DNA from: an uncultured Saprospiraceae bacterium
Lineage (GTDB): Bacteria; Bacteroidota; Bacteroidia; Chitinophagales; Saprospiraceae
DNA: 34,375 nucleotides
NCBI GenBank assembly: GCA_937969415.1
Contig: CALBWK010000100.1
Span: 1 to 34,375 of the forward strand
Reading direction: 5' to 3'
A program made the position numbers and the translations under genes. Shown here one piece after another: positions 1 to 30,605 of the stretch. Each line of letters starts with the position of its first letter. The first letter of the stretch is position 1. Below the pieces are notes generated by a model. It was not told where the DNA came from. It did no database searches and was given only the letters and a program-made list of their open reading frames with translations.

Positions 1-1224
1 ACACATCTCTGTAGCGCAAATAATGAAGTATTCGCCATCAGTGCCACACTCATCAGTAGCACCATCACCATTAAAAGATTCTGCTATATATATTATTGGA
101 CTAGGTGCAGTGGCGCAATCTATTGAAACCCCAGCACTATCTCCTACTGTAATATCTAGTGCATCCGTACCATCACCTATAAAGGAAGGGTCAGTTATAG
201 TCACACAACCTCCAACAGGTGTTAAACTTGAAAAGGTAGTACCATCTACAGTCACATCAACTAAGGCCGGAGATGATATAGGATTACTATGATCAAAACA
301 TACTTCTAGTGTATAGGTGCCATCTGTATTACAAGTTGATGTTGTAGCTACGTTAGATATCGAGCAAACTGGATTACCTCCACCAGAACAAGTACTAGGC
401 ATCGTTGTGACCGTACTTACCACGCTTTGCAATCTGGCACTTGTCTCACAAACACATCGTGTAGAAACAGAGATAACACTTGCCTGGTCATACATTGGGA
501 GTGTAGCTGTTCCAATTGTTGCAAACCCATCTAGAGAATACATCAAAATAGATCCTGCAGGACAAACATTTATTGGCGCTGAAATCATTCCACCAGACGG
601 AGTAACTCCCCCAACTGCGCATGTACTTTCGAGTACCATAACTTCTAGGGATCCACTTACAATAGCGCTAAAATCAGGGCAAGCATTTAACATTAAAGGT
701 CCATTACAATTGAAAGCAGCTTGAGTTGCTGAATTTTGGCAACCATCAGTGTCTGACGGAAATTCTATACAGTTAGGGTCTGTACAATCTGAATCTCCAG
801 CTGCTACCTCGCAAAGTAAATTACCACCTTCAACTAATCTTAATATTTCGCCACCATTATTTATATAAGCTATAGCGTTAAGATCGATGACACCAGGTGG
901 TACAGGATTAGACACTTCATCCCAATTAGAGACAGCGAAGACACATTCCCCAGCTGCTAACATACCTGAAAGGGAAAAGGTAGTTCCTATAAAGTCAACA
1001 ATCTCTACGTTGGATAAATCCCGAGTAACATTAGAGACGTTGCAGATTTCAACGAATTCATCAGTAAAAGTTACCGTTCCATTTCCATCAGTATCAAAAT
1101 TATTGACACCATCTGGATCCAATAAAACAGATCGAATTTCGAGTTCATCACATTGTGCTAATGACTCATTAGTCAACATCAAAAATGCAGCAAGTATAAA
1201 TAAAGAAAATAAAATATTTTTCAT
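1..1224 (-). CDS. Secreted lamin-tail-domain protein, C-terminus cut by window edge
   Basis: This is an open frame of 408 codons reading from an ATG at 1224 to base 1 with no stop, so the gene continues off the left edge. It begins with a classic signal peptide (residues 1-24, MKNILFSLFILAAF then a cleavage region ending SLAQ). Residues about 25-140 look like a lamin-tail domain: an early EIRSVLLDPDG strand, a GNGTVTFTDEFVEICN segment and later WDEVSNPVPPGVIDLN. An acidic D-x-D-x-D-G stretch lies near residue 44. The remainder is cysteine-containing beta-rich sequence of the type used as stalks in Bacteroidota surface proteins. No sorting domain is visible because the C-terminus is missing. 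It lies 45 bases downstream of the 1708-aa protein on the same strand and is probably cotranscribed with it. Function is not known; an extracellular structural or binding role is inferred. Confidence 0.85.
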   Translation of the reverse strand, partial: MKNILFSLFILAAFLMLTNESLAQCDELEIRSVLLDPDGVNNFDTDGNGTVTFTDEFVEICNVSNVTRDLSNVEIVDFIGTTFSLSGMLAAGECVFAVSNWDEVSNPVPPGVIDLNAIAYINNGGEILRLVEGGNLLCEVAAGDSDCTDPNCIEFPSDTDGCQNSATQAAFNCNGPLMLNACPDFSAIVSGSLEVMVLESTCAVGGVTPSGGMISAPINVCPAGSILMYSLDGFATIGTATLPMYDQASVISVSTRCVCETSARLQSVVSTVTTMPSTCSGGGNPVCSISNVATTSTCNTDGTYTLEVCFDHSNPISSPALVDVTVDGTTFSSLTPVGGCVTITDPSFIGDGTDALDITVGDSAGVSIDCATAPSPIIYIAESFNGDGATDECGTDGEYFIICATEMC

Positions 1225-1269
1225 TGTTTTCTTTTTGAAAATCAATAAGATTTTTCCAGTTCCTAATTC

Positions 1270-4200
1270 TTAATTCTGACCGTTCCAAGGGAAGGTGCCA
1301 TTACAGCCTACTGTACATACTTGTAAAGCAGCAAAATCAAAATCGTCTTCATCCATCGCGTTATCAGTTCCTCCTGCCGTTTCGTCGTCGACATTATTAT
1401 CGTCTTCATCAGCAAGTCCACCATCGGTAGCCTCGAGATCATCATCTTGATCATTGATATTTTCTAAACCTTCTGGGTCTTGAGTTGCAGCAATTATTTC
1501 AGCGGCATTAAATAAAGTTCCATTTATAGCTTCCACTCCTACTCTTAAAAAGATGGACATTGTTAAAGACTCTCCTGCCGGCAAAGCAGTGGTCGTCACT
1601 GCCATACCTGTAACCGTATTACCACCAGGCGTATCTGGATTAGCAGCAAAAGCTGTAGACATATTATCAGCTGCGAAAAAATCCAAACCTAGTGGCAAAT
1701 AATCTGCTACCTGTATGTTGTAAACCGGTTGATTACTTTGATTAAATACTTCTATCTGAAATTCTACTAAATCGTCTAACCCAAAAGGTCCACTTGATTC
1801 TAATACTTTCATCAAAGCGACATCATAGATAGGGCAAGGATCCATCCTACTTACAGTCATAGTTGCCTCTTGAATACAATCTCCAAGGATAGTTGCTCTC
1901 ACAAAAAGATCTTCACCGTCAGGTAAAGACGTTGTCGTAAAAATTTCTGATAATCCTGACTGTAATATTTCTTCTACCCCATCGCTATCAACATCTGTGT
2001 AAAAAGTATAACTAACTAATCCGGTAGGCGAAGCAGAAAAACTAAGTTCTTCTCCAGTACAGCCATCTGTATCTTGAGTAAGTGTTATTTCTGGAGTCTC
2101 TACGACTGTAATCGTAAAATCATCAATATCATTACAGAAATTATCGCAAACAACGACAACTGTACCATTATAAACACCCGGCGCAAGTCCATCAGGCAAC
2201 ATATACATTGCACCAATAGCAGAGCCACTTGAGTTCATATCGACGAGACCAGCAGTATTGGCTGCATCATCATACTCCACTAGAAAGTGTTCCACAGTAC
2301 AATCGGCCATAAACTCGATAGGAATTTCAGTTGTTCCGGCACATACGACAGGGTCATTCACTGTAATTGTAGGTGCATCAGGTTCTCCGATTTCGATTTC
2401 TACAAATTCACTAGCACACATAAGTCCGGTCGGTCTATTTTCTAAACTCACCATATACGTACCAACTGTTAGGTCCGACAGAAGGAATTCTCCGTTAGCA
2501 TCAGGTGTAAAGACTGCACCAGAAGCAAGAGATCCTTGTGGCCCTGTATACACTAAAAACTTACCTCCTGCTGATAGATTGGTAAATCGGATAGAACCAT
2601 CAGTACCATCGCATATCGTAGCAGGTGATACAGTCACATCGAATGATGGTTCTTGAAAAAGTTGAACATTTACTGCAACAACAGAAAAGCAAGAAGCACC
2701 GAAAGACACTCTAGCAAAAATTCCTGCATTAGTGAGCCCCATTCCATTAGGAATCTGGTTTGTACCAGCCATAGCATCTGCTTCATCCATATAATAGGTC
2801 ACAGTTGCTGTAGAGGAACCATCCATACCATCTCCGTCTACATCACCATTGGCAATATCTTCGGCGTCTGTCAAGTCGTAATTTGACATAAAAGAACCGA
2901 GAGGATCTTCACAGCCGCGGATAAAAGCGCCTTCATTAACACCAGACACATCACAACAAAGTGAGTTATCTATGGTAATTTGAATAGTCGTCATCGACTC
3001 GCAGCCAGTCATAGGGTCTGTATAGACAACGTAGTAAGTTGTATTCATTGTCGGAACAACCATACTTGAAGTAAGCAATGGTGGTGTATTGGTCAGAACA
3101 GACGCAGGAAGCATCCCAGGGTCTACAGAATAAAAAACAAAATCTGAGGCCACAAAATCGATGTTATAATCAATCATTGTCAAATCAACAATACTTCCAT
3201 CTGTACCGCAAATAGGAGCAGGTTGAGTGTCAATAGTCAGAGGCTCTCCTGAAGGAAACTCCAAAGTTTGGGGATTTCCTAATATAGTCATATCACATCC
3301 AGCATCATCAGTAGCTGCTGTAATATCATATGACCCAGGACATAAACCAGTTAGCGTAAATGGTAAAACCACACCAGCCAAACTGAATGAAGTTCCGTTA
3401 ATCGTATAATCAATATCAAACTCACTTGAAGATGTTGTAGTTCCTGTCAAGTCAAAAGTCAACATTCCATCACATGGCATACAAGCAGTAGGCTGCACAT
3501 TACTATTAATAGTCAGTTCGACTGAAGGTCTTATATTAACGCAAACTTCAGCGTCACTTACACTTCCAGAACAATTAGCACCATTCTCATCAGTTATCGA
3601 ATTCAGAATTACTTTTACATCTCCTATTGTAGGTCCTGATATCATCAAGTTATCCCCAGAAGATATCCCAAAAGATGTATTTGAAATACCATCTACTGTA
3701 TAGTCAACAGTGAACGGCCCTTCACCTCCATTAATAGTAATTGGTAAGTTCGCAGAAGTCATATCTACAGCACATACATCTACACCTGTAGAGGCAATAC
3801 TTGCTGTAGGACAATTAACTGTCACTTCTAGCACTTCTGATATAGGGCTTGCAACATCAGGATCGGTATCTGGACAACTTGAAGCAAAAGGATCTATAAC
3901 CGCTCTAAATTCTAAATCCATCGACGGACAAGCAGCAGAAGGAATCGTGAACAAAGCACAAAATTCTTTTTCTGCAGGATCAGAATTATAGCCTGGATCA
4001 GCTGGAGTTACTATTGGCGGCGTGTCTGAGCCAGCGCTAGTATCATCTCCTGGGTTAGATGTCCAAACTACATCAGAAATAAGAGTTCCCATAGCATCAT
4101 ACAAATTGGCAAAGTCATTTGTATTGGCCAATCGACTAACAGAACCCACACAAACAAGATAGGTCCCGCCAGCTGGAATAATTGTACCTGCAGGTACCGT

Positions 4201-6396
4201 AAAAAAGGATGTTGCAGAATTATCCTCTAGAGTGTATCCAGATATATCTGCAGAATTACTAGGATCTGCATTGGTTAGGATAATCCATTCTGTACGAGAT
4301 CCACAAAGAGCAATAGATTCAGAGCCAGTAGTTGCCGGATCTGGATAGACTGCCGAGATATAGACAAAAACTTCTGGATCGTTAGAAGGAATTGGAATAC
4401 TTTCAAACCCTTCGAAACCTGTACCTTCATCTACTTCCCAAGTAAGACTACCTCCAGAAGGCAATTGATTACCATCAAAGCATAGTTCTATTTCTGTATC
4501 TGGACAAGCCATTACCGGACCTGTACCACCATCGACTGTTACAACAACACTCTCGGGACATATAGGCGCTATTTCACAATTATCGTCTATCGCTATACTA
4601 AGCACACTAAATCCGCAGGATGCCATTTCTATCACATCGATTCTATACCCTGCATTGGCAGCTACGTCATCTGGTATATTAAATATACCTGACGAATTAC
4701 TTACAGTAGCAATTGATCCAGAATTATCTATTAGTTGAAATTGAAGATTGCCACCACCTACGATATAATCCATAGCATTGATCACACCTGGTGTTGGAGG
4801 GCCTGGATCACAACTTAGACTGCAAGGCACTTGAGGATCATCTGCAATACCATCACCATCACAATCATACAGCGCAGGCTCCAACAGTGTCACGAAAAAG
4901 TTTTGTGTCTCATAGCACTCATTAGGATTAGATTGGCTATGAGGGTCACCAGAAGTTCCGCAGCAATTAGAATAATCATCTATAACCGCACCAAAAGAAT
5001 AAGCACCAGGTTCTGTAATATTTATTTTTTTGCAAAGCGTCGTCGTCTCACCTGAGACTTCATAGGTATCCCAAGTTTCGTTAAGGTCAGTTATTGGATT
5101 GAATACGTAGGAACCTGTCTGTCCATTATCTGTACCCGACCTAGTGTCCATATTGTCTGAGACGTGCTGGTAGTTATAGACCTCAGCACAAATCTCTATC
5201 TCTCCAGGCATACAGAGCACAGAATTGTTTATGTAAAAAGTAAAAGTAGGATCGTCGTTTCTTTGTCCAGGTGTTGGGTGGTCAGTATAAGCCCATTCTG
5301 AAGCGTTTGCTCCACAAGCTGATGGCGTAAAACTATCAGAGGTAAAAGACTCTTGAGTTTCATTACCTACGGATATAGGACAACCGTTATCGTCTAACTC
5401 TTGATCTATAAACTTCCCATCTGCATGAGAAGGAGCACCATTTTGACCGCCTTGACTAGTCCCAGGATTTAATCTTATATAAGAAGAATTACAGCCTTTA
5501 TTATTGGGGTTTAGAATCGTATAAACTGCATTAGTAATTCGAGGCAAAGTATAACAAACTTGATCAGCATTACAATCACCAGCTGGCATCAAAGGGACTG
5601 CAATAGCATTACTGCCGTCGCATCGACCCATTGGTATAGCGGCAGGGTTGTCATTGACTATCCCATTACCATCATTATCTCCTAAGGTATATGGACCAGA
5701 TTGAATTAGACAATTATCTGCATTACCGATTGCTCCTGGAGAGGTAGACCAGGCTAGTGCATCGTGTACTGTTCCGTCCGGTTGAAATAGAACAACCACA
5801 TCTCCATCAGTAGCAGAGGTATTATCTAAAGTAAATCCACTAGCAGCAGGGTCATAAAAATTTGCATTGGCCGGATCGCACACATCAAAATCAATCTCCG
5901 TAGTAAATCCAGCATTATAATCTCCATTTCCAGCCGCTATCTGCCCATTAGGGGCTGAGCCTATTCCTGTTCCACTACTTCTATTTATATCTGCACTACA
6001 AGTTATGAGGTACACTCCATCTGTAGGTATTACTGCACTTGAAGGAAGTACGACTGCCCATTCTCCATTGGAGACAACCATACAGCCAATCGCTGCACCT
6101 GCAGGGCCACAAAGTTCTACTATAGCATCATTAGAGCCATCTGATTGACCTGAATCACCAGATACTTCACAGATAACAATGTTGTTATAACTACCATTAC
6201 AATCTACACCTGGGCTTGCGCATTGGGAAAAACTATAATTATTAAAAGCTGAAAATACCATAAGGGCAACTACCCAACGTCGTATCCCTAACTGGAAGTC
6301 CTTGTGTATCTCTGTGAAAGCCTTTAATCTACAATTGCTTCTGCGATCTCTAGTTAGAGATAAAGCAGAGCGGCTAGGCTGCTTAGGCGTGGTCAT
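1270..6396 (-). CDS. Giant secreted protein with lamin-tail and DUF11 domains
   Basis: A 1708-residue exported protein starting at an ATG. The N-terminus has about 40 mostly basic residues before the hydrophobic core (WVVALMVFSAF, about 41-51) and a likely cleavage after YSFSQ (about 58). Two lamin-tail-like regions are visible: about 70-225 (NIVICEVSGDSG, AIVELCG, GVYLITC) and about 675-790 (VYISAVYPDP, TEWIILTN, GTYLVCVG). A calcium-type DCDGDGIADD motif sits at 511-520. Beta-rich cysteine modules fill the middle, and a DUF11 domain lies at about 1525-1645. The last 60 residues are very acidic (DEDDNNVDDE) and end in CTVGCNGTFPWNGQN. I see no T9SS sorting domain, which is unusual for this class. 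It is followed after 45 bases by another lamin-tail gene, and the upstream gene at 6555 is divergent. Function unknown; a surface or matrix role is inferred. Confidence 0.85.
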   Translation of the reverse strand: MTTPKQPSRSALSLTRDRRSNCRLKAFTEIHKDFQLGIRRWVVALMVFSAFNNYSFSQCASPGVDCNGSYNNIVICEVSGDSGQSDGSNDAIVELCGPAGAAIGCMVVSNGEWAVVLPSSAVIPTDGVYLITCSADINRSSGTGIGSAPNGQIAAGNGDYNAGFTTEIDFDVCDPANANFYDPAASGFTLDNTSATDGDVVVLFQPDGTVHDALAWSTSPGAIGNADNCLIQSGPYTLGDNDGNGIVNDNPAAIPMGRCDGSNAIAVPLMPAGDCNADQVCYTLPRITNAVYTILNPNNKGCNSSYIRLNPGTSQGGQNGAPSHADGKFIDQELDDNGCPISVGNETQESFTSDSFTPSACGANASEWAYTDHPTPGQRNDDPTFTFYINNSVLCMPGEIEICAEVYNYQHVSDNMDTRSGTDNGQTGSYVFNPITDLNETWDTYEVSGETTTLCKKINITEPGAYSFGAVIDDYSNCCGTSGDPHSQSNPNECYETQNFFVTLLEPALYDCDGDGIADDPQVPCSLSCDPGPPTPGVINAMDYIVGGGNLQFQLIDNSGSIATVSNSSGIFNIPDDVAANAGYRIDVIEMASCGFSVLSIAIDDNCEIAPICPESVVVTVDGGTGPVMACPDTEIELCFDGNQLPSGGSLTWEVDEGTGFEGFESIPIPSNDPEVFVYISAVYPDPATTGSESIALCGSRTEWIILTNADPSNSADISGYTLEDNSATSFFTVPAGTIIPAGGTYLVCVGSVSRLANTNDFANLYDAMGTLISDVVWTSNPGDDTSAGSDTPPIVTPADPGYNSDPAEKEFCALFTIPSAACPSMDLEFRAVIDPFASSCPDTDPDVASPISEVLEVTVNCPTASIASTGVDVCAVDMTSANLPITINGGEGPFTVDYTVDGISNTSFGISSGDNLMISGPTIGDVKVILNSITDENGANCSGSVSDAEVCVNIRPSVELTINSNVQPTACMPCDGMLTFDLTGTTTSSSEFDIDYTINGTSFSLAGVVLPFTLTGLCPGSYDITAATDDAGCDMTILGNPQTLEFPSGEPLTIDTQPAPICGTDGSIVDLTMIDYNIDFVASDFVFYSVDPGMLPASVLTNTPPLLTSSMVVPTMNTTYYVVYTDPMTGCESMTTIQITIDNSLCCDVSGVNEGAFIRGCEDPLGSFMSNYDLTDAEDIANGDVDGDGMDGSSTATVTYYMDEADAMAGTNQIPNGMGLTNAGIFARVSFGASCFSVVAVNVQLFQEPSFDVTVSPATICDGTDGSIRFTNLSAGGKFLVYTGPQGSLASGAVFTPDANGEFLLSDLTVGTYMVSLENRPTGLMCASEFVEIEIGEPDAPTITVNDPVVCAGTTEIPIEFMADCTVEHFLVEYDDAANTAGLVDMNSSGSAIGAMYMLPDGLAPGVYNGTVVVVCDNFCNDIDDFTITVVETPEITLTQDTDGCTGEELSFSASPTGLVSYTFYTDVDSDGVEEILQSGLSEIFTTTSLPDGEDLFVRATILGDCIQEATMTVSRMDPCPIYDVALMKVLESSGPFGLDDLVEFQIEVFNQSNQPVYNIQVADYLPLGLDFFAADNMSTAFAANPDTPGGNTVTGMAVTTTALPAGESLTMSIFLRVGVEAINGTLFNAAEIIAATQDPEGLENINDQDDDLEATDGGLADEDDNNVDDETAGGTDNAMDEDDFDFAALQVCTVGCNGTFPWNGQN

Positions 6397-6554
6397 TCCT
6401 TAATATGTTGATTTACAATGACCATCGTAGTTCAAATTCTATGCTAGAATTACGATTTTCTTTAATATGTTCTCTAAAGGAAAGGTATATACATATGTAA
6501 GTGTCTGCAATTCAAACAGTTACGTATATGCGATAAGCTGATTATATTTATCCT

Positions 6555-7475
6555 ATGGTAGACCTACATATACTTAATGGAGACGCTATTGCTCCCCTAT
6601 TTGAGCAAGCTGATATCCCCGGTGAGGTATTTGTATGGGCTGAGGTCTTGTGTGAAGGGCGCTCTGGAATAGACTTGATTAGTGAAGAACATTGGCAATA
6701 TAGACAGGCTTACCTGCAGGAGACATACTCATTTTTTGAGCAGGAGAAATTTGATAGTCTTAAGAATGGATTTCAAGCGTTAGACCTCTACAATTACAAG
6801 AACATCTTTCTATGGTTTGAGTATGATCTCTTTTGTCAAATAAATATGATAGCGCTATTGGCGTGGCTATCTACCCAAAACTACAAAGGTCAAATACGAC
6901 TCATTTGTGTGGGAGAGCATCCTGACTATGATAAATTGGTTAGTCTTGGTGAATTGACTCCGACGCAGTTTACTGCGCTTCTGGAGAATCCCCATCAACT
7001 AAAGGAAGCTGATCTTCAAACCGCTGCAACTCTCTGGACGCATTGGTGTTCAGGCCAGCACGATGATCTTCTAGAGACAAGTCTTGTACTCAACCAAGAG
7101 CGATTTCCTTACGTAAAACCAGCTCTGCAAGCCCACCTAAAGAGGTTTCCTTATGACACTACCTTGCTGACCGAAATTGAAAACTACCTTATACAATTGA
7201 TCAAAGAGAAGCCTCAATCCGCGAAGGCACTAGTCGGGCAGCTGCTGAGTCGAGATAATTATTATGGCTTTGGTGATGTCCAATACTTTAATATCATCGA
7301 AAATCTTAAGTTGATAATGAGAGAAGACCAAGGACTACTCTATTGGGATACTTCGGCAGATGAAGACACTAGCAATACAAATTCTAAAAAGAACATCAAT
7401 AGGGAATTCTACTTTGGAGGAGCAAGTCAGAAAGATTACTTCTATAGCGAAGAAGCAGGAAAACTTATCAAATAA
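6555..7475 (+). CDS. DUF1835 domain-containing protein
   Basis: A 306-residue protein with no signal peptide or membrane segment, so cytoplasmic. The start MVDLHILNGDAIAP, followed by a W-A-E-x-L-C-E-G-R motif near residues 28-36, a W-x-x-R-Q-x-Y segment and a predicted Rossmann-like strand (NIFLWFEYDLFCQINMIALL, about 83-102), fits the DUF1835 family. Members of that family are small nucleotide-fold-like proteins of unproven activity. The second half is helical and includes FPYVKPALQAHLKRFPY. It stands alone between two minus-strand units. The 158-base divergent region upstream has no clear promoter. The DUF1835 family assignment is from motif recall; the function is unknown. Confidence 0.75.
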   Translation: MVDLHILNGDAIAPLFEQADIPGEVFVWAEVLCEGRSGIDLISEEHWQYRQAYLQETYSFFEQEKFDSLKNGFQALDLYNYKNIFLWFEYDLFCQINMIALLAWLSTQNYKGQIRLICVGEHPDYDKLVSLGELTPTQFTALLENPHQLKEADLQTAATLWTHWCSGQHDDLLETSLVLNQERFPYVKPALQAHLKRFPYDTTLLTEIENYLIQLIKEKPQSAKALVGQLLSRDNYYGFGDVQYFNIIENLKLIMREDQGLLYWDTSADEDTSNTNSKKNINREFYFGGASQKDYFYSEEAGKLIK

Positions 7476-7533
7476 TAGAGGCAAAAACCCCACGAGCAAC
7501 TGATATAGAAAGGCCCTTTCAGATGACCAAAGA

Positions 7534-8886
7534 TTACCTCATGAGTGAAACCAACCCATTCCGCTTATCTTGGAATAATATCTTTCCATCAATATTATTT
7601 TCATTGTCTATTGAAAGATACATCCTCTCCATATCTCGAAGTATTTTATGCTGACTACCAGAATCAACCTTCTCTAAGTAGTTTCTGACATTAAAATCAA
7701 ATATCAGTTTAGAATTAGACGTAGAAGTTTTGACTTGTGTACTGTCCATATCAGCTGTATACAAATACAATCCACTCGAACTGTGCTGACTATAGGTGGT
7801 TACAAGAGGCATAATGGCTAGAATATTTCGACCCTCTTTCTCGACAATAGCATTTTGACGCCTCAGGTAACTCATTATTGAGGTATCCGCTCCTACAGAG
7901 AGCAAATAACTAGGTTCTTCAGTATGCTTGATATCGTTAACCTCTACTTTGTTAAAGTTATCATCATACTCATACGTAGTGATCGTATCAACTGAAGCCG
8001 TGAAGTCTGAAAAGACTGCATTAACGTCACCACTCATAAAACCTGACAATGTATCTAGATTGAGCTTGGTAAAATTTGAAAACTTGTCCTTCTGATCAGT
8101 GGACAACAAATCAAGAAACTTAGGAAAATCAAGCTTAGCTGAAAGTGTTCCAAGACCTTGAGATTTAACTTCAGCAGCAGAAGGCTGCAAAGCAGGCATA
8201 TTGTAATTACCATTTACATTGATGACACCCTGTCCAAAATTAACATCAAGAAAGTGTCCATTATCATCAACAAAGTGGATGTCACTTACTGATCCAAGCG
8301 TTGCATCAAAAAGCTGGTCACCTTCAGCCATAAAACCACTTTGCTCTTGAGTTGAGATTCCTTTACTAGATGTTGAAGTACCTTCATAGGCAAGCTGCAC
8401 TTTCTCTCCATCAATCAAGATCGTTAGATTTTTCCTTGTGTACTCTTCATTATCAGCTGGACCGCTAGATTCAAAATCATTTTGCTCCAAGAACTTCTTG
8501 AGCTTAGGGGTGTCCTTAATTTCTAATTCAGAGGAATACCAAACACCATTGGACAATTTATAAAAAAGCAATGACTTAGGTGTAGAGACACAATCCATCA
8601 AACTGGCCTTGGCATCAGGCTTTGTAGAAGGTTGATTTTCTTCTAGATCAGTTTGGTTATTCTGTTCTTCAGTATCACTCACAGACGAGAAATAGGAGGC
8701 AGGTCGACTGAGCATGTCTTGTAGAAAATATTTCTCCATAGACCTAACCTTAATCTGTACTACTGCAACAGCATCGAGTGGGATGGTCTTACACATACAA
8801 GCACTCGTTTCATACCTAAGTATGTATGCAACTACAATTGCTAATAATATGAAGAGTAGCAACACATAACCCAACTTTCGCTTCAT
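7534..8886 (-). CDS. Signal-anchored envelope protein, divergent DUF4836-like paralogue
   Basis: A 450-residue protein. An N-terminal hydrophobic segment (about 6-23) after MKRK suggests an uncleaved anchor or signal peptide. The following IPLDAVAVVQIKVRSM (about 35-50) resembles the IPKDA-x-V-x-I opening of DUF4836-type proteins. Residues about 286-332 (GDVNAVFSDF, then YEYDDNFNKVEV, then EEPSYLLSVG) match a segment of the gene just upstream (389-435 there), so the two appear to be divergent duplicates. A low-complexity acidic stretch lies at about 70-92. It is the last gene of a three-gene operon and begins 30 bases after the previous stop. No catalytic motif is visible. Function unknown; a periplasm- or surface-facing role is inferred. 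Confidence 0.75.
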   Translation of the reverse strand: MKRKLGYVLLLFILLAIVVAYILRYETSACMCKTIPLDAVAVVQIKVRSMEKYFLQDMLSRPASYFSSVSDTEEQNNQTDLEENQPSTKPDAKASLMDCVSTPKSLLFYKLSNGVWYSSELEIKDTPKLKKFLEQNDFESSGPADNEEYTRKNLTILIDGEKVQLAYEGTSTSSKGISTQEQSGFMAEGDQLFDATLGSVSDIHFVDDNGHFLDVNFGQGVINVNGNYNMPALQPSAAEVKSQGLGTLSAKLDFPKFLDLLSTDQKDKFSNFTKLNLDTLSGFMSGDVNAVFSDFTASVDTITTYEYDDNFNKVEVNDIKHTEEPSYLLSVGADTSIMSYLRRQNAIVEKEGRNILAIMPLVTTYSQHSSSGLYLYTADMDSTQVKTSTSNSKLIFDFNVRNYLEKVDSGSQHKILRDMERMYLSIDNENNIDGKILFQDKRNGLVSLMR

Positions 8887-8916
8887 AATACCTATCTAAA
8901 ACTGTGATCTATAAGC

Positions 8917-10698
8917 CTAGATACCTTTAAGACTAGAAGTCATAGAGTTTAACATAAGCTTTAATGCATTCCCTTTATCTCCAGAAGTCTTAACAACCAT
9001 ATCAAAAGCCATAGTATTGTTCTCAACTCTTCCAGAAGATATATGCATCTCCTTATAATCATCTCGTAGTCTGCTAACTGTTGCAGAGTCTAAAGGCAAC
9101 ATACCAGAAAGACTTTCAATTACTGAAGAACTATTTACAAACATATTGAATGAATTTTTTCTGAGGAACTTTCTATGTTTACCTAACTTTCTATCGCTCT
9201 TGCCAGAAGCGTAATTGTTGACCTTACTCTTAGAATTTGTCAAGTAGACTATGCCATTGTTATGCGAAAAGTACATGTCAAAAGGTGCCCCCATATCCTT
9301 GGCGGGTATTCTGTGGTGATTTCCTTCAACATTTGCAACGCCATATTTCTTAGCAAGTCTCATTAACTTTGAGACAATCTTTTTATTTTCTGATCCGAGC
9401 ATTACAGAAAATACAGGCATAGGTTCCATTCTAGTTTTTTCTACCTGAGTAGGATTAAAATCCTTGTCATACTCGGTATCCATATAAGTCACTTCTTGCT
9501 CTTCAACATTATGTAGCACCATCAAACCATCACCTGTTATCAATTTCCCTATCGCTTCTTCATCAAGAATAACTTCCATCAAATCCATACCTACACCTAG
9601 TTCTTCGCTAAAATCTGGCAAGAGCGAACCATACAATTTTTGAAAATTTGATGGATACTCTTTAAGCATCTTTTCTGTGTCAGACGAGAAACTCATATAT
9701 GACAATACGTCTTCTTGATTAAAGTGCTTGAGAAAAGATCTGTCCATCTTTGAATATACCTTGGCGAAAGACTCAGCAAGCTCAGGTTTAAGCCCCATAG
9801 TAGATTCCAATCTCATTTCGTCTTTATTAAAGATAAGATTAGAAGACATGTTGGTCATTCCTGTGGGCATCCCCTCACTAGCAAAGCCAGCCGCCGCACC
9901 AGGAATCTGAGAGAGCAACTCTGTTGGCATCGCGTCCTTCATTAAGTCATCCAAATTACCTAACCAAAAGTATGCAGATGAATTACTCTTTTTACCTTTC
10001 GTATAGCTTGTTACATTACGGATGGACTGCGCTGAAGAAGTGTTGATGATATTAGTGAACTGTTCTGTCATCATCAGTGTCATTTCTTCTGGAGAATGCA
10101 AAGGTGGTGCATTCATATTTTTGATCATAAGTTCGATAGCCAAATCTTGCTCTTCTTGAGCCTCTGCATCATAGAGGACTGAACCCTCTTCTCCTAGTGC
10201 AGTACCTTCTTGATTTGCCTGACGTTCTGCCTCTTTCTCCGCCTTCAACTCTTCCATTGTATATACTCTCTTTGGAAAATTAGTATAACTAAAAATAGCA
10301 GTGTTACTATTCCAAGCTGCAGTGGTTCCATCCTCCATTATAACTTTGAAGCCATTCATCATTTGTGGTTCAGCAGGCAACATAGAGGTCAAAAACTCTT
10401 CTGCCTTTTTCATATCGGTCAGACCGAAAACAAAATTTTGGTAAGTCCCAGACTCACGCATATCTAAGAAATAGTACGCCTTAGACTTTATATTGATACC
10501 TAATTCTTCTAAATCCATAGGACCATCTGGCCCTGGTGGCATCATCATTTCTATATCGGCAAAATCAATTAAACTAAAAATCTGACCTCCATCTATTTCC
10601 ACTACTGCCTTAGTATCCTTAGAAATATATTGTTCCAAATTTTGAGATTGTAAACTAGATACAATCAAAAGGCAAAAGAATGCTAATTTTGTTTTCAT
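8917..10698 (-). CDS. DUF4836 family exported protein
   Basis: A 593-residue protein with a cleavable signal peptide (about 1-19, ending SLQSQ). The mature start YISKDTKAVVEIDGGQIFSL matches the general form of the DUF4836 family, which is common in Bacteroidota envelopes and has no known activity. Residues about 148-190 form a highly charged insert (KAEKEAERQANQEG) likely to be helical. The segment 389-435 (GDGLMVLHNV, EYDKDFNPTQVE, EPMPVFSVMLG) is shared with the downstream gene. The middle gene of a lipoprotein/DUF4836/DUF4836-like operon, 43 bases after the lipoprotein. The family assignment is inference from pattern recall; the paralogy with the neighbour is seen directly. Confidence 0.75.
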   Translation of the reverse strand: MKTKLAFFCLLIVSSLQSQNLEQYISKDTKAVVEIDGGQIFSLIDFADIEMMMPPGPDGPMDLEELGINIKSKAYYFLDMRESGTYQNFVFGLTDMKKAEEFLTSMLPAEPQMMNGFKVIMEDGTTAAWNSNTAIFSYTNFPKRVYTMEELKAEKEAERQANQEGTALGEEGSVLYDAEAQEEQDLAIELMIKNMNAPPLHSPEEMTLMMTEQFTNIINTSSAQSIRNVTSYTKGKKSNSSAYFWLGNLDDLMKDAMPTELLSQIPGAAAGFASEGMPTGMTNMSSNLIFNKDEMRLESTMGLKPELAESFAKVYSKMDRSFLKHFNQEDVLSYMSFSSDTEKMLKEYPSNFQKLYGSLLPDFSEELGVGMDLMEVILDEEAIGKLITGDGLMVLHNVEEQEVTYMDTEYDKDFNPTQVEKTRMEPMPVFSVMLGSENKKIVSKLMRLAKKYGVANVEGNHHRIPAKDMGAPFDMYFSHNNGIVYLTNSKSKVNNYASGKSDRKLGKHRKFLRKNSFNMFVNSSSVIESLSGMLPLDSATVSRLRDDYKEMHISSGRVENNTMAFDMVVKTSGDKGNALKLMLNSMTSSLKGI

Positions 10699-24303: not shown

Positions 24304-27300
24304 CTATCGAACTAGCGTCACACTTCCTTTGCTAGACACGACTTTACAACTCTCTATCTCAGCTTCTAGATAATAAGCATAGACATCTTCTGGTAAGCGT
24401 TGGCCTTGATAATATCCATCCCAACCATCAGGATCAACTTTATCATATAGTAGTTGACCCCATCGATCAAATACTTTAAAAGCTGTTACAGTAACCACAT
24501 CTAGATATCTTTCAGGAATAACTATCCTAAATTTGTCATTCATCCCATCATCGTTGGGTGAAAAAACATTTGGGAATCCATAAAACTCATTTTCCATTGT
24601 TATCGGAATGGACTTGGTTGTTTCGGCTGTACAGCCTGTCTCACTATCGGTAACTAAAAGCTGCACATCTACCTCCCCATCACGGCCATAGCTATGTATG
24701 GGGTCAATTTCTGCCGTCGTAACGCCATGATCTAAGGTCCATAGATAGTCATCAGCGCCTATAGAATTATTCTCCAAGCGCACGAGCCCTCTGCAGTGGT
24801 CATACTCTGTATCTAGTTCGAAGTCTGCAGCTATCTCGTAGATATCTAAGTCGATAACTTTGGTAATCTCGCAACCTGAGTCTAGTGAATGCAAAGTAAC
24901 TGAAACCTGAGTGGGGTCACCAGGATGTTCTGCGTAGTGATTATACACAACATTAGAATCTGAAAAGACAATATTATTCATAAAGTCCCACTCAAAAGTT
25001 GACGTCTCAATAAGATTGAGTACCTCTACTCTCAATGTATCCCCTTGACACAACGCATATTCATCCGCAACAAGATCACCATCTGGACCGACAATAGATA
25101 TAGTATCCCTCTCATAATCAGCGCAACCCCACCGTGAAGTACCTGTCAGACTTATTTCATAATCTCCTCGTGAATAGAGCTCCGAAGCAGACACCCCAGT
25201 TACAGTATTACCATTACCTAAATCCCAAGAAAAAGACATACCAGCCCAATCGTCCCCAGTAGAATTCAATACTAAAGGGAATGGATGGCAAAGTTTATCA
25301 TGGCCATCGGCGGAGGTATCAAAAGAAACAGAAGGGATAGGATGAATACCCACATCAACACTCTTTATCGTTTCGCATCCAGTATCTTCAGACTTTAAGA
25401 CCAAATTGATGGTGGTCGCCTCATTATTAGGTACAAAGGCATAGGTATGCGAAACTATTCCATTTTCTTGGAGGACAGTACCATCTCCTAAATCCCAATC
25501 ATATGTACTGATATCTATAGGATTACGTAGCTCAACTGTTACTATTTCTCCTAAACAGAGATGGTCATCACTGATAAACAAATCACCATCAGGGCCTACG
25601 AAATTCAAATCTTTCGATAAGATATCCTCACAACCAAGACTCGATCTTGCCCTAAGAGAAACTGTAAAGGTGCCACGATCAAAGGTACTTGCGGGATCCA
25701 CTACAGTGGAGGTAGAACCATTATCAAAATTCCAAAAATAATTAATGCTGCCATCTACTGAAGACTCATTGGTGAAATCAACTGTATGTGGAAAACAGAC
25801 AAAATCCATTGTATCAATAGAAGTGCTGAACGCTGCAACTGGCGTCTCAAGAACAGGAAGATTTGTAGTGATAGTGTCATAACAAACTGTACCTTCTGGC
25901 CAATAAACCAACTGCACTGTATGGATCCCTGCTGAGTCAAACGTCACATAAGTACTTCTTTCATTGCTCGTGCCAAAGGGGCCAAAATCCCATTCATAAG
26001 CCAACTGCCCTCCTTCCATTGTAAAGTCATCTGTGGTCACTAAATGTGTATCACCTTGACAAAAACTCGGAAGAGAACTAAACGAAGTCTCTGGTACATA
26101 TACCCGTGTAAGTTTTCTTAGGGTGTCGACACAGCCTAGGGCATCTTGCATTGTTAGTTCTATCCATAATGAATCAGAATCTCCTTCAGTAGATGGGAGA
26201 TTAGATGTTGAGATGGTATGTTCTGGCGCTCTCTCTGTACTACCAAAACTCCAATCCCACGACACAACAGTCGTATCACTCATAGTGAAATTTTCAAACT
26301 GATTCTTGAAAGGCAGGCAAATAGAGCTATCTAATTCAAACTCTGGAGTGATTCCAAATACATCGATATCAATCGCTGCATACGCTTGACATCCATTGAC
26401 ATCTACGACCGTCAAGGCCACCTCTTGCTTACCGGCGTTGAAACTTTGACTAATTATAGGATTGATTGTGTTTCTTGGCCGCATTCCTTCGAAAGTCCAA
26501 CGATACGATGGATTACAATTATCACTGACACCTAGCGTAGCAGAAGCGTCGACTAAATAGTTTACTTCATCACATAGTTGCACACTATCCATACTTAATG
26601 CCGCAGTCAAATCGGACACATATACTTCAACAGTGTCCCGATGGCTAGGACAGGGACTATCTCCAGAAAGCGCCTCCAAAATAATCTGATGGCTTCCCAC
26701 TCCAGGCAACTGATAAGTGAAGGCAGAATCTTGACTAATGAGCTTGCCCTCATAATACCACTTCAGTCCATCAGCTCCAAGACTATTACTCCATAAGTCT
26801 ACATAGCTGTTATCTTCACAGGTTTTCTTATACCCTATTTCTGCTCGAGCACCGAGAACCGTGAGGGTGCCTACTATATCACGCCTTAACTCATATCCTC
26901 TTGTCTCTCTCAAAACAACTATGGGATATTCTCCAGGATACATAAAAGTATGCACACCACGATTTGTATTCCAACAATGATTGAATCGACCCTCATCGGT
27001 TTCTACGTGCACATCTAGACCTGCGTTAACAACATAGGGCATCGGCTGGCCTACACATATGATTGCATCTCCTGCCGGTCTTCCTCCAAATTCGCATTCG
27101 CCTCCGCCGCCGCCGTTTCCATTCCCACCTCCAGACAGACCTAATGCAGTAATTAATGTCTTCTTAGAAAAATCTCTGCAGCCACTAGCCGTAACAATTT
27201 CTAATTGCACAAACTGATCATAACCCTCTTGAAAAGTATGTTCCACATAGGAATCACCCTCTAAGACGGTTCCATCCTCGAAGTGCCATATCCAATTGAC

Positions 27301-28674
27301 AATAGGTTCTGTTGCATCACTATAATCTGTAAAACCAATAGTCAGCGGGGCTAGACCAATGACAGAATCTGGCACAAAAAATGCCTCTGGCAACTGCACT
27401 TCTAATGAGTCTTTATAAGTATCAGAACATCCATAACCAGTATCAACAGTCAGTGATAAATAAATAAACTCTTCCTTATTTATATAGTCAGAATCTCGTA
27501 CTGGAAAATCAAAAGCAATACTTTCGACCTCACCAGATGGCGTGGAATTACCGTTCCACGTATAGGAACTCAAGCCCTGATGCACAGCAGTTAGCGTAAT
27601 TGGAATTGTGGTGTTGCAGAGCGCACCGTGCTCAATGTGAAATTCAGCCAAGGTCTCCTCTATAGTAATAAAGAAAGAGGTATCCGATCGACAGGAGCCT
27701 CTCCTAGTACTGTAGGTGATGAATTTTACTCCAGGACTAGAATAACTGACCTTGGGTGACTTTTTACTTTCTTCATCATCTATATACTCTGCATCTTGAC
27801 CAAAAGTCCAAGTGTGGTCATTTGTGTTGGTATTATTGACAAATACTAGTGGAGTATCCAAGCAGTATTTTATAATTGTATCTAGCTCGATTTTCGGAGA
27901 ATCAACTCTGATTGTAGTTTCTTGAAAATGCTCGCATCCATCGGGACCTCGGACAGTCAATCTCAAACTAGAATTTCCACGCTTAGTTATCTGAATAGAT
28001 CCTAAGTCTCTGTTATTACTAATAACTTCTCCGTCTAAAGTCCAGATGTATTCATATCCAGAGACACTAGCCGTAATTTCTGAAGGTATTATCGTAGCAG
28101 GAGAATCGCAAAAAATCGTAGAATTAAGTCGAAACTCTGCTTCTAGAATCCTCACTTGATTTTCTCGTATAATAGTCTTGTTACAATCTGGAAAATTGGT
28201 TTCTACCTCTAAAGAAACATCATAAATTCCAGATTCTTTGTAGACATAATTAGGATTTTCATTTGTAGATCTGGCTCCATTTCCAAATGTCCAAAAATAG
28301 CTTTGAACAATTACTTCAGGGCTACTTGTAACCAAGCTTGTAAAATTGATAGGTACCTCTGCACAACCGGACCTAACATCAGATTGTAGATCTACAACAA
28401 GATCTGCGTAGACTTCAATGTCTATCGAACCAACCACAGGGCCACTCACATTCCCCTCGTACAACCAAATTTTATAGCTACCAGCTGTCGTAAAGATATG
28501 CTCAGGATTTTGCAAATCAGAACTTACGCCGTCACCGAAATCCCAATAATATCCTGATGCAATTGGCGCCTCAAATTGCACAGTCAAAGGCAGACAGCCT
28601 TTATCGACGCTTGCTGTCTGGGAGACAAGGACTATAGGGAGGCAATATAGAATTGCCATAATAAATTTCTTCAT
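24304..28674 (-). CDS. Giant PKD-repeat adhesin with gliding-type (CHU_C, type B) sorting domain
   Basis: A 1456-residue secreted protein with signal peptide 1-19. Many PKD/Ig-like modules carry the W-x-F/L-G-x-G signature, for example YYWDFGDGVSS (42-52), YFWTFGNGARS (126-136), WIWHFEDGTVL (461-471) and WNFDNGSTS (981-989). A glycine-rich hinge (514-525) separates the first five or so modules from the rest. Residues about 947-1114 and 1116-1282 are a tandem duplication (VGPDGDL at 1026 and 1195). The end (about 1362-1456), with FPNVFSPNDDGMNDKFRI, VFDRWGQLLYD, WDGYYQGQRLPEDVYAYYL, is the gliding-motility-associated type B sorting domain. It should be exported through T9SS with help of the PorP/SprF protein in the same operon. 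Likely an adhesin or matrix protein by analogy to SprB-type cargo. Confidence 0.92.
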   Translation of the reverse strand: MKKFIMAILYCLPIVLVSQTASVDKGCLPLTVQFEAPIASGYYWDFGDGVSSDLQNPEHIFTTAGSYKIWLYEGNVSGPVVGSIDIEVYADLVVDLQSDVRSGCAEVPINFTSLVTSSPEVIVQSYFWTFGNGARSTNENPNYVYKESGIYDVSLEVETNFPDCNKTIIRENQVRILEAEFRLNSTIFCDSPATIIPSEITASVSGYEYIWTLDGEVISNNRDLGSIQITKRGNSSLRLTVRGPDGCEHFQETTIRVDSPKIELDTIIKYCLDTPLVFVNNTNTNDHTWTFGQDAEYIDDEESKKSPKVSYSSPGVKFITYSTRRGSCRSDTSFFITIEETLAEFHIEHGALCNTTIPITLTAVHQGLSSYTWNGNSTPSGEVESIAFDFPVRDSDYINKEEFIYLSLTVDTGYGCSDTYKDSLEVQLPEAFFVPDSVIGLAPLTIGFTDYSDATEPIVNWIWHFEDGTVLEGDSYVEHTFQEGYDQFVQLEIVTASGCRDFSKKTLITALGLSGGGNGNGGGGGECEFGGRPAGDAIICVGQPMPYVVNAGLDVHVETDEGRFNHCWNTNRGVHTFMYPGEYPIVVLRETRGYELRRDIVGTLTVLGARAEIGYKKTCEDNSYVDLWSNSLGADGLKWYYEGKLISQDSAFTYQLPGVGSHQIILEALSGDSPCPSHRDTVEVYVSDLTAALSMDSVQLCDEVNYLVDASATLGVSDNCNPSYRWTFEGMRPRNTINPIISQSFNAGKQEVALTVVDVNGCQAYAAIDIDVFGITPEFELDSSICLPFKNQFENFTMSDTTVVSWDWSFGSTERAPEHTISTSNLPSTEGDSDSLWIELTMQDALGCVDTLRKLTRVYVPETSFSSLPSFCQGDTHLVTTDDFTMEGGQLAYEWDFGPFGTSNERSTYVTFDSAGIHTVQLVYWPEGTVCYDTITTNLPVLETPVAAFSTSIDTMDFVCFPHTVDFTNESSVDGSINYFWNFDNGSTSTVVDPASTFDRGTFTVSLRARSSLGCEDILSKDLNFVGPDGDLFISDDHLCLGEIVTVELRNPIDISTYDWDLGDGTVLQENGIVSHTYAFVPNNEATTINLVLKSEDTGCETIKSVDVGIHPIPSVSFDTSADGHDKLCHPFPLVLNSTGDDWAGMSFSWDLGNGNTVTGVSASELYSRGDYEISLTGTSRWGCADYERDTISIVGPDGDLVADEYALCQGDTLRVEVLNLIETSTFEWDFMNNIVFSDSNVVYNHYAEHPGDPTQVSVTLHSLDSGCEITKVIDLDIYEIAADFELDTEYDHCRGLVRLENNSIGADDYLWTLDHGVTTAEIDPIHSYGRDGEVDVQLLVTDSETGCTAETTKSIPITMENEFYGFPNVFSPNDDGMNDKFRIVIPERYLDVVTVTAFKVFDRWGQLLYDKVDPDGWDGYYQGQRLPEDVYAYYLEAEIESCKVVSSKGSVTLVR

Positions 28675-28703: not shown

Positions 28704-29543
28704 TTAGTACATCAATCGTCTTGTACTCTGAATGTTATCTGCCATCCGTATAAACTGCATCGGTGTAAATGAACACTTGCAGAGATATGGTGACATAATA
28801 TTATTGGTCTTGGGACTAAAGAAATCTCCATTATCATCTTTCAGTTCGGAGATAAACTCACAGCCTTCGTAATAATCTGTAGGCTCAAAATTATTCACTA
28901 GTTTCCATTCATTGGTTATCGAATCTCTCGTCATACGATAAGGATCAGCTGGTGTGTCGCAGATACAATCTCCAGCTGTTGCACAATTGGAGCCATCAAC
29001 TAACTCACTTGCATTATCTGCATTAGTATCCTTAAGACCCAGTAGCCTTCCCATATGATGTGCGATCTGTAACGCAGGAGGTTCAGAACACTTTAAAGCC
29101 ACAAAAATGTGCGCATTGTTATGTGAGAACAACCCACGATATTCACTATACCCACAATCATCACTGGTTACTTTGTTGACAAATAAAATAGTCACACGTC
29201 GTGGATAGCTGTAAACGATTTTCATCTCTTGACGCCGCTCTTCGGAGTCGATACTATTGTAAGTATAGTTGTCCTGTATAACATGAAAATCACAGTTGCT
29301 TAAACTAACACAGATCGGCTCGAAATAAGTGGAGGCCTCTCTAAGAATGGCTTGAACTTGCTCCTCAGTTCTCAGAGGTTCTCTCCCAGAAGAATCGACG
29401 GTCATCACCACTCTGACATTAAAGTTCTTATTAAGACAAGGAAGACTACAGCTCAAATTATCGACTGCCGAAGATTGTGCAGAAAGCTGACCTAGACAGA
29501 AGTAAGTCAGCGTAACAAGTAGACATAAAAGTGGCTTTTTCAT
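28704..29543 (-). CDS. Catalytically dead pappalysin-like metallopeptidase homologue
   Basis: A secreted protein of 279 residues from the ATG at 29543 (MKKPLLCLLVTLTYFCLG); the longer frame to 29552 would start with TTG. Numbering below uses the longer frame. The scaffold resembles M43-type (pappalysin-like) peptidases of Bacteroidota: N-FNVRVVMTV, a helix AILREASTYFEPICVSL, VTILFVNKV, then the cysteine loop SELVDGSNCATAGDCICDTPADP (181-203) and the Met-turn NIMSPYLCKCSFTPMQ. The expected zinc motif HExxHxxGxxH reads H165-H166-M-G-R169-L-L-G172-L-K-D175. The glutamate and the second and third histidines are gone, while the glycine and first histidine remain. It should therefore lack peptidase activity. 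It sits between SprF and the adhesin, 45 and 29 bases from each, so a binding or chaperone-like role is plausible. Confidence 0.8.
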   Translation of the reverse strand: MKKPLLCLLVTLTYFCLGQLSAQSSAVDNLSCSLPCLNKNFNVRVVMTVDSSGREPLRTEEQVQAILREASTYFEPICVSLSNCDFHVIQDNYTYNSIDSEERRQEMKIVYSYPRRVTILFVNKVTSDDCGYSEYRGLFSHNNAHIFVALKCSEPPALQIAHHMGRLLGLKDTNADNASELVDGSNCATAGDCICDTPADPYRMTRDSITNEWKLVNNFEPTDYYEGCEFISELKDDNGDFFSPKTNNIMSPYLCKCSFTPMQFIRMADNIQSTRRLMY

Positions 29544-29588
29544 AAAGTACAATTAATATGAATAGAGAAATTATTTTGTAAATAGGGC

Positions 29589-30605
29589 TTATAACCTAGG
29601 ACAGATAAAGAGCACTTTTTCTTTCACCTTAGGGTATATAATAAACACTCGAGATACGCCAACCTCTAGAGCACCGTTCATTCCATTATAGTTTTGCGCT
29701 GACGAAGTGGTTATATCATATTGAAGACTCGCCGACCATATAGCATTGGATAAACTTACACCTAGAATAGCGGCATCTTTTAATCTATATCCACAGGAGT
29801 AAGTTATTTGAAAATCGCTTTCATCATTGAGCTGATGTTGTACTCCTAATGCACCGACTGCATTGATAAGACCAATTGCTTGATGAACCACAAAACTTGG
29901 TTTCCAAGTTATTTTACTTTTTTTATCGAGTTTGACATCCCAGCTTCCAAAGACAGAATATTGATTAAGGAATCTACTTTGGGCATTAGAGGTACCCCAT
30001 TGTGTAAGATCCATCTGGACAGATATACCACCTTGAAACACAATGCGCTTATTGAATACTTTCTTTACAGCTACACCTGTTCTGTGCGCTAGCCTTTGAG
30101 AATTGAAATCGTCGATAAGACTTTGATCACGACTCTCTCCTGTCATCGCCAAAAGCTGATCTTCGAAGCGGGCTGCAGTTGGATTATTAATCTGCAAAGT
30201 AGAATGCTGTACCTGTGTCCCTAGGCTCAGGATTGTCTTGAATTTTTTATCCAGTGCTCGGTGATAAGCCAGAGACAATCCTGTTTGCATTCCTAACATA
30301 CTGAGATCTCCAGCATCACTTCTTGTCATCATCATACCGATGCCTATCCAGTGATGATCTGCCATCTTCATCCCTCTTGGAGCATCCACATAGACTTGAG
30401 AAGTTTTGAAGGGTTGTGCGATGAATCCGCGGTACTGTTCTCTAAACTTTAATCCAACTCTAAGAGAACCTTTATAAGCTCCTGTCAGAGCGGGCGAAAG
30501 CTGCATTTGCGCTTCTCCGTAATCAGAGAAGTGAATTCTCTGGGCATCCATACTTAAGGTAAGGACACAGCAGAGCCATATGCCAATCGTTGTTCTTTTG
30601 ATCAT
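29589..30605 (-). CDS. PorP/SprF family type IX secretion outer-membrane protein
   Basis: A 338-residue beta-barrel protein with a signal peptide (1-21, ending LSMDAQ). The opening IHFSDYGEAQMQLSPALTGAYKGSLRVGLKFREQYRGF is the PorP/SprF signature (here as QLSPALTGAYKG and FREQYRG). Amphipathic strands continue to the end with no soluble domain. Members of this family help move type B sorting-domain proteins such as SprB across or onto the outer membrane, and are often encoded next to their cargo. The 1456-aa adhesin two genes downstream has exactly that domain. First gene of a three-gene operon; divergent from the gene at 30729. Confidence 0.9.
   Translation of the reverse strand: MIKRTTIGIWLCCVLTLSMDAQRIHFSDYGEAQMQLSPALTGAYKGSLRVGLKFREQYRGFIAQPFKTSQVYVDAPRGMKMADHHWIGIGMMMTRSDAGDLSMLGMQTGLSLAYHRALDKKFKTILSLGTQVQHSTLQINNPTAARFEDQLLAMTGESRDQSLIDDFNSQRLAHRTGVAVKKVFNKRIVFQGGISVQMDLTQWGTSNAQSRFLNQYSVFGSWDVKLDKKSKITWKPSFVVHQAIGLINAVGALGVQHQLNDESDFQITYSCGYRLKDAAILGVSLSNAIWSASLQYDITTSSAQNYNGMNGALEVGVSRVFIIYPKVKEKVLFICPRL

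Follow-up and report, generated by a model that had tools for sequence, protein, structure and literature searches.

According to the parts of two reports on which we draw here, each type B substrate of the type IX secretion system (T9SS) has a dedicated PorP/SprF-like carrier (PMC12618676, PMC12635249), and for Flavobacterium johnsoniae pairs the carrier was shown to be required for secretion of the cognate adhesin (PMC12618676). In the same portion of the second report, the F. johnsoniae SprF tail contains a Cys-X-Cys that is disulfide-bonded to GldK (PMC12635249), and the available part of an account of Porphyromonas gingivalis has PorP holding PG1035 together with PorE (PMC9143113). A further dedicated partner, beyond the SprF-like carrier that type B adhesins need, would add a component to this pathway. 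Our literature search, limited to open-licence papers, turned up no account of SprF-adhesin modules with an M43-like component. In metzincins, the zinc motif HExxHxxGxxH/D allows Asp as third ligand, and Tyr286 of mirolysin is the catalytic Met-turn tyrosine (PMC6949598). Here we describe a locus in which the gene of a predicted pappalysin-like protein with a degenerate active site lies between those of a carrier and an adhesin.

Results

A carrier, M43-like protein and adhesin unit

An isolated unit of three minus-strand genes, in the order PorP/SprF, M43-like protein and PKD-rich type B CTD adhesin (Table 1), lies in the window, by which we mean the whole analyzed stretch of 34,375 nucleotides from an uncultured Saprospiraceae bacterium (contig CALBWK010000100.1). 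With a PorP/SprF carrier encoded together with a type B CTD protein, the unit has the composition of a T9SS type B carrier-adhesin module. It is flanked by a divergent gene that begins at 30729 and a convergent gene that stops at 24260. As the first-pass annotation had stated, the frame of the central gene is intact (ATG at 29543, stop at 28704, with TTG at 29552 as a possible alternative start) and the genes are tightly packed, with gaps of about 45 nt between SprF and the pseudopeptidase (36 nt with the TTG start) and 29 nt between the latter and the adhesin ATG. An Rfam search of the window gave no match, nor did a PHROGs search. Elsewhere in the window, positions 1270–6396 of the minus strand hold an ORF of 1708 aa.

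Table 1 Features of the three-gene unit, in order of transcription
Feature	Position	Strand	Evidence or remark
Outer-membrane carrier of the PorP/SprF family (first gene)	29589..30605	(-)	PF11751 70.4 bits; TIGR03519 89.0 bits, just under cut-off 90.55
SprF C-terminal tail CPRL, single Cys	29592..29603	(-)	CPxx ends every SprF tabulated from related operons
M43/pappalysin-fold pseudopeptidase (predicted), 279 aa	28704..29543	(-)	Signal peptide of Sec type, judged by eye
Degenerate zinc motif HHMGRLLGLKD, residues 162-172	29028..29060	(-)	Translation of the ORF
CDTP cysteine loop, residues 195-198, conserved	28950..28961	(-)	Comparison with homologues
Met-turn NIMSPY, residues 248-253; Pro at the catalytic Tyr position	28785..28802	(-)	Homologue comparison; mirolysin Tyr286 (PMC6949598)
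PKD-repeat adhesin, 1456 aa, constant genomic partner	24304..28674	(-)	PKD_4 177.6 bits; CHU_C 51.7 bits; collinear family
Adhesin type B sorting domain for T9SS, residues about 1367-1453	24316..24576	(-)	PF13585 and TIGR04131

The Cys-X-Cys tail that would mark a gliding-track-linked SprF was found in none of the carriers tabulated from these operons, all of which have the single Cys of CPxx. The genome encodes GldK (561 bits, over cut-off) and a GldJ-like protein (under cut-off), so that a link to the gliding track may exist.

Another contig of the same genome (C113) contains a second unit in the same order (L006, about 1–9900, minus strand), in which the motif of the pseudopeptidase, HHLGHFLGLTD, retains the second His, and Glu has again become His. 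Another adhesin of the same family follows this second unit in tandem. Elsewhere the genome encodes an M43 protein of comparable length whose motif, HEMGHFWGLYH, is intact (L004), with neither SprF nor adhesin in the fetched flanks.

A predicted pappalysin-like scaffold with a degenerate active site

The AF2 model of the window protein (pLDDT 92.8, pTM 0.86) gave its best Foldseek matches to PAPP-A (4e-10), ulilysin (TM 0.58/0.62) and mirolysin (0.59/0.60), which predicts a pappalysin-like fold. The Pfam M43 profile scored 15.3 bits on the window protein, below its cut-off of 23, and matched 63 of 71 homologues at E ≤ 0.01; a sequence search of the PDB with a profile built from the 71 homologues returned pappalysins and ulilysin. 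Ten Cys are conserved across homologues, in most members, both operon and standalone. Together with the CDTP loop, the ten Cys, the model and its Foldseek matches bear out the original proposal of a pappalysin-like scaffold with a cysteine loop and a Met-turn, with the qualification that the Met-turn tyrosine is gone. Pfam and NCBIfam searches found no sorting domain on the window pseudopeptidase, which thus has no T9SS cargo signature.

The degenerate reading of the zinc motif was confirmed: His stands in place of Glu163, Arg in place of the second zinc ligand His166 and Asp at position 172, that of the third ligand; only the first His is kept. The earlier count of three replaced positions out of four holds for the letters (Glu, second His and third ligand), but Asp172 is of a kind tolerated in metzincins, so that the damage that counts is the change of Glu to His and of His to Arg. 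A loss that the first-pass annotation did not list concerns the Met-turn tyrosine (Met+2), which is Pro252 in the window protein. The window protein thus lacks two sequence features of catalytic M43 proteins, HExxHxxGxxH/D and a Tyr two residues after the Met-turn Met.

Loss of catalytic residues across the family

Homologues were drawn from 199 genomes of the family, 14 genomes of the genus and a named genome collection, and the final set, with identical proteins removed, comprised 104 homologues of 230–360 aa. In a midpoint-rooted tree of these 104 rows (IQ-TREE, catalytic columns excluded), a 42-row clade (support 100/94) contains nearly all SprF > partner > adhesin loci. Nested in it is a 28-member clade (99/96), which includes the window protein and in which Glu, the third His and the Met-turn Tyr are missing in 28/28. 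The Glu position is mostly His, otherwise Gln, Val or Lys. Members outside the subclade of the window protein mostly keep the first and second His, with Asp or Asn as third ligand; in the window protein and those closest to it, the second His (R, S, N) or the third ligand is gone as well.

The catalytic motif persists elsewhere in the same operon position, with HExxHxxGxxH (Trp/Phe variation inside) and NIMSYY in 9/9 members of a nine-row clade (99/95); L097 and L084 likewise retain HExxHxxGxxH beside the same adhesin. The fork uniting the 28-row inactive and nine-row intact clades is weak (84/56), and the term 'sister' is provisional for them. Intact orthologues in this slot had been proposed as a sign of recent local loss; they exist, but the conclusion drawn from them fails, since they branch outside the 28-member inactive clade. 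On the tree, the loss in the lineage of the window protein is old and fixed, which rules out a recent local event.

Over the whole family, Glu is missing in 43/104 homologues, requiring at least eight changes, and the set of HExxH plus third-ligand His/Asp in 55/104, requiring at least 12. We take the changes to be losses on the ground that M43 is defined by the intact motif; the tree, for its part, is midpoint-rooted. Glu and the Met-turn Tyr occur together in 49 rows and are jointly missing from 39 (88/104 concordant); a sign test comparing the two losses in independent pairs was underpowered. As a control, we read by eye 40 other M43-like proteins of the family, which were weaker matches chosen by similarity, and accepted as intact those motifs in which Ser, Asn or Ala takes the place of Gly; the catalytic set was kept in 32 of the 37 resolved and lost in five. 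Loss of the set in 55/104 adhesin-linked homologues versus 5/37 controls corresponds to p = 3e-5, a value that ignores relatedness and refers to a similarity-chosen control. Motifs are also broken in five larger M43-like proteins of the family (L216, L219, L225, L247 and L253; RQAGHYFSLYP, RQMGHFFGLYP, HLIGQYLSLYP).

Close pairs of the inactive clade are under purifying selection, with NG86 dN/dS of 0.03 (L006/L111) to 0.18, versus about 0.04–0.10 in active pairs, many dS values in this comparison being near saturation. These figures come from related inactive pairs, to the exclusion of the window protein, whose closest relative is 57% identical. The feature is real, and the 28-member inactive clade, the purifying selection in close pairs and the conserved fold together lend good support, at clade level, to the initial suggestion that the protein has been kept for a non-catalytic purpose.

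Genomic linkage with the adhesin

Three gene orders occur among the homologue loci: SprF > partner > adhesin; partner > SprF > third ORF, the adhesin being divergent; and a partner that adjoins a divergent adhesin but not SprF. The second occurs in Flavobacteriales, Crocinitomicaceae and others (L142, L150, L161, L163, L165, L170, L181, L188, L189 and L192) and has an intact motif in the partner at most loci, a third ORF of about 690–720 aa that is PorE-like where tested, and a divergent adhesin of about 1470 aa where complete. At L165, a locus of Flavobacteriales type, the third ORF scored 321 bits as PorE-like, below the model cut-off of 600. At the partner > SprF loci, the last residues of the carrier are PCDRY, PCDRF, PCERY or PCERF.

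The adhesin adjoins the partner at 97 of the 104 homologue loci, truncated copies counted, either co-directionally downstream (43) or divergently (54). A cultured organism, Flavilitoribacter nigricans DSM 23189, has the active form of the partner, with the adhesin divergent (L178). The seven non-adjacent loci comprise three that end at a contig edge (L076, L108, L112), one with an adhesin-like ORF about 1.5 kb off (L142), two with an adhesin match elsewhere in the genome (L081, L104) and one with no adhesin in its flanks (L067). At about half of the loci, the adhesin is present but SprF is not a neighboring gene. Of the adhesin and the SprF barrel, both suggested by the first-pass annotation as binding partners, linkage favors the adhesin, which is the constant neighbor, and this adjacency is a stronger argument than the correlation of distances described below.

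Presence and absence of the two genes agree in 14/14 genomes of the genus, the same nine having both. Among the 199 family genomes, both were found in 54, the partner only in two (G110 and G142, both on short or truncated contigs), the adhesin only in three (G095, G026, G075) and neither in 140, a match in 194/199. This tally was made by hand with thresholds of E < 1e-30 (partner) and E < 1e-130 (adhesin), both set after the lists had been seen; most further matches of the adhesin search begin near 1e-98 and are mostly 1800–1900 aa long. Fisher's test of the family co-occurrence gave p of about 2e-42, relatedness being ignored. In 345 genomes across the phylum, we found, outside the window's own genome, no clear small standalone partner at the cut-offs used and no adhesin match under strict cut-offs; the few other matches were mostly larger proteins. 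This near-absence indicates that the family is rare.

Across 28 operons, pairwise distances of the pseudopeptidase correlated at 0.87 with those of the adhesin versus 0.74 with those of SprF. A first run, biased by the longer adhesin alignment, put the pseudopeptidase-SprF correlation given the adhesin at about 0, and noise-matched partial correlations (200 columns sampled per protein) were 0.54 for the adhesin versus 0.29 for SprF, a preference that is suggestive only.

The adhesins are collinear along their length across homologue loci. A stretch of about 170 residues in the window adhesin (about aa 1108–1275) is absent from aligned relatives; it opens with a second GPDGDL unit, 169 residues past the first, with 25% identity in a crude comparison, and may be an old internal duplication. 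A model of the central adhesin segment (pLDDT 90.6) is all-beta and Ig/PKD-like by secondary structure, with no obvious special domain.

Discussion

We consider it fairly probable, from sequence and modeling, that the window protein is a dedicated non-catalytic accessory partner, acting as escort or subunit, of the adjoining PKD/type B CTD adhesin. It would descend from an M43 (pappalysin) peptidase that was active and had this adhesin as its partner from before the loss; in the lineage of the window protein, the former peptidase would have become a pure binding scaffold. The pseudopeptidase would be exported by Sec to the periplasm and, carrying no T9SS sorting domain, would fold there as a disulfide-rich metzincin scaffold, whose old substrate cleft or rim may hold a segment of the adhesin. 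It might then escort the adhesin to the translocon and SprF, or stay as a subunit of an SprF-adhesin complex. Holding or escorting is the mechanism that linkage supports best, with the caveat that gene linkage can reflect shared regulation.

The partner could instead be the SprF barrel, which the protein would plug, assemble or stabilize in the outer membrane. In favor of such a role, SprF is the gene just upstream for most members of the 42-row operon clade, and in the second arrangement the mostly active homologue immediately precedes SprF and a PorE-like gene. The role is nonetheless unlikely, and SprF as sole partner was rejected, because about half of the homologues have the adhesin but no adjoining SprF; divergence also correlates more with the adhesin. 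We give little credence to persisting chemistry, in which HHxxHxxGxxD/N forms would retain a metal and serve as an atypical hydrolase or for metal storage: the ligands left in most inactive-clade members outside the window's subclade are compatible with it, but the general base Glu and the Met-turn Tyr are both missing across the 28-member clade, and the window protein with its nearest relatives lacks further ligands.

Pseudopeptidases that regulate active relatives or serve as decoys are known (review PMC11266112), and with L004 the genome has at least one intact M43 of similar size on which the protein might so act. This is very improbable given that genomic linkage points to the adhesin and away from any active M43, and that active homologues fill the same adhesin-linked slot in other species. 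Decay as a pseudogene in this genome, finally, would fit a copy that has lost more ligands than most of its clade, but is extremely doubtful in view of the intact frame, the ten retained Cys, the tight packing, the second operon with an inactive copy in the same genome and the purifying selection on inactive pairs elsewhere.

If the role of accessory partner is extended from the window protein to its relatives, one family of adhesins secreted by the type IX system would have the whole M43-like family as its obligate accessory subunit, with catalysis dispensable and lost many times. The M43-like family would then be a factor for secretion or assembly that arose from a protease and in some members still is one; we hold this reading tentatively, at somewhat less than an even chance. 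In many uncultured Bacteroidota, a secreted protease-like protein whose cutting residues have repeatedly been lost is encoded beside one giant surface adhesin, and its job is probably to hold or escort rather than to cut. Occupying one genomic slot, members of the family range from an intact protease to a scaffold devoid of zinc ligands, a natural series in which the separation of a binding role from a catalytic one is open to direct test. The family also gives annotators a reason against labeling such genes proteases.

Comparison with known systems

The unit resembles F. johnsoniae SprF/SprB in that a type B CTD adhesin is encoded with a PorP/SprF carrier that has Cys in its tail. It differs in that the window carrier has one Cys, not Cys-X-Cys, in the gene order of carrier, partner and adhesin, and in the extra M43-like partner, of which the parts of the F. 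johnsoniae reports used here make no mention. The likeness to PorE-PorP-PG1035 of P. gingivalis lies in a PorP barrel holding a type B CTD protein and in the PorE-like gene at L165, whereas PG1035 is a protein of about 50 kDa and an M43-like partner is unmentioned in the available part of that account. With pappalysin-family M43 peptidases (mirolysin, ulilysin, PAPP-A), the window protein shares the predicted fold, the Met-turn Met, the CDTP loop and the HxxGxxxGL motif helix; unlike them, it has no Glu, no second or third His ligand and no Met-turn Tyr. The metzincin domain of ADAM22 is reported to be catalytically dead, and ADAM22-LGI1 structures are among the Foldseek matches of the window protein, but ADAM22 is eukaryotic and membrane-bound and belongs to another metzincin subfamily.
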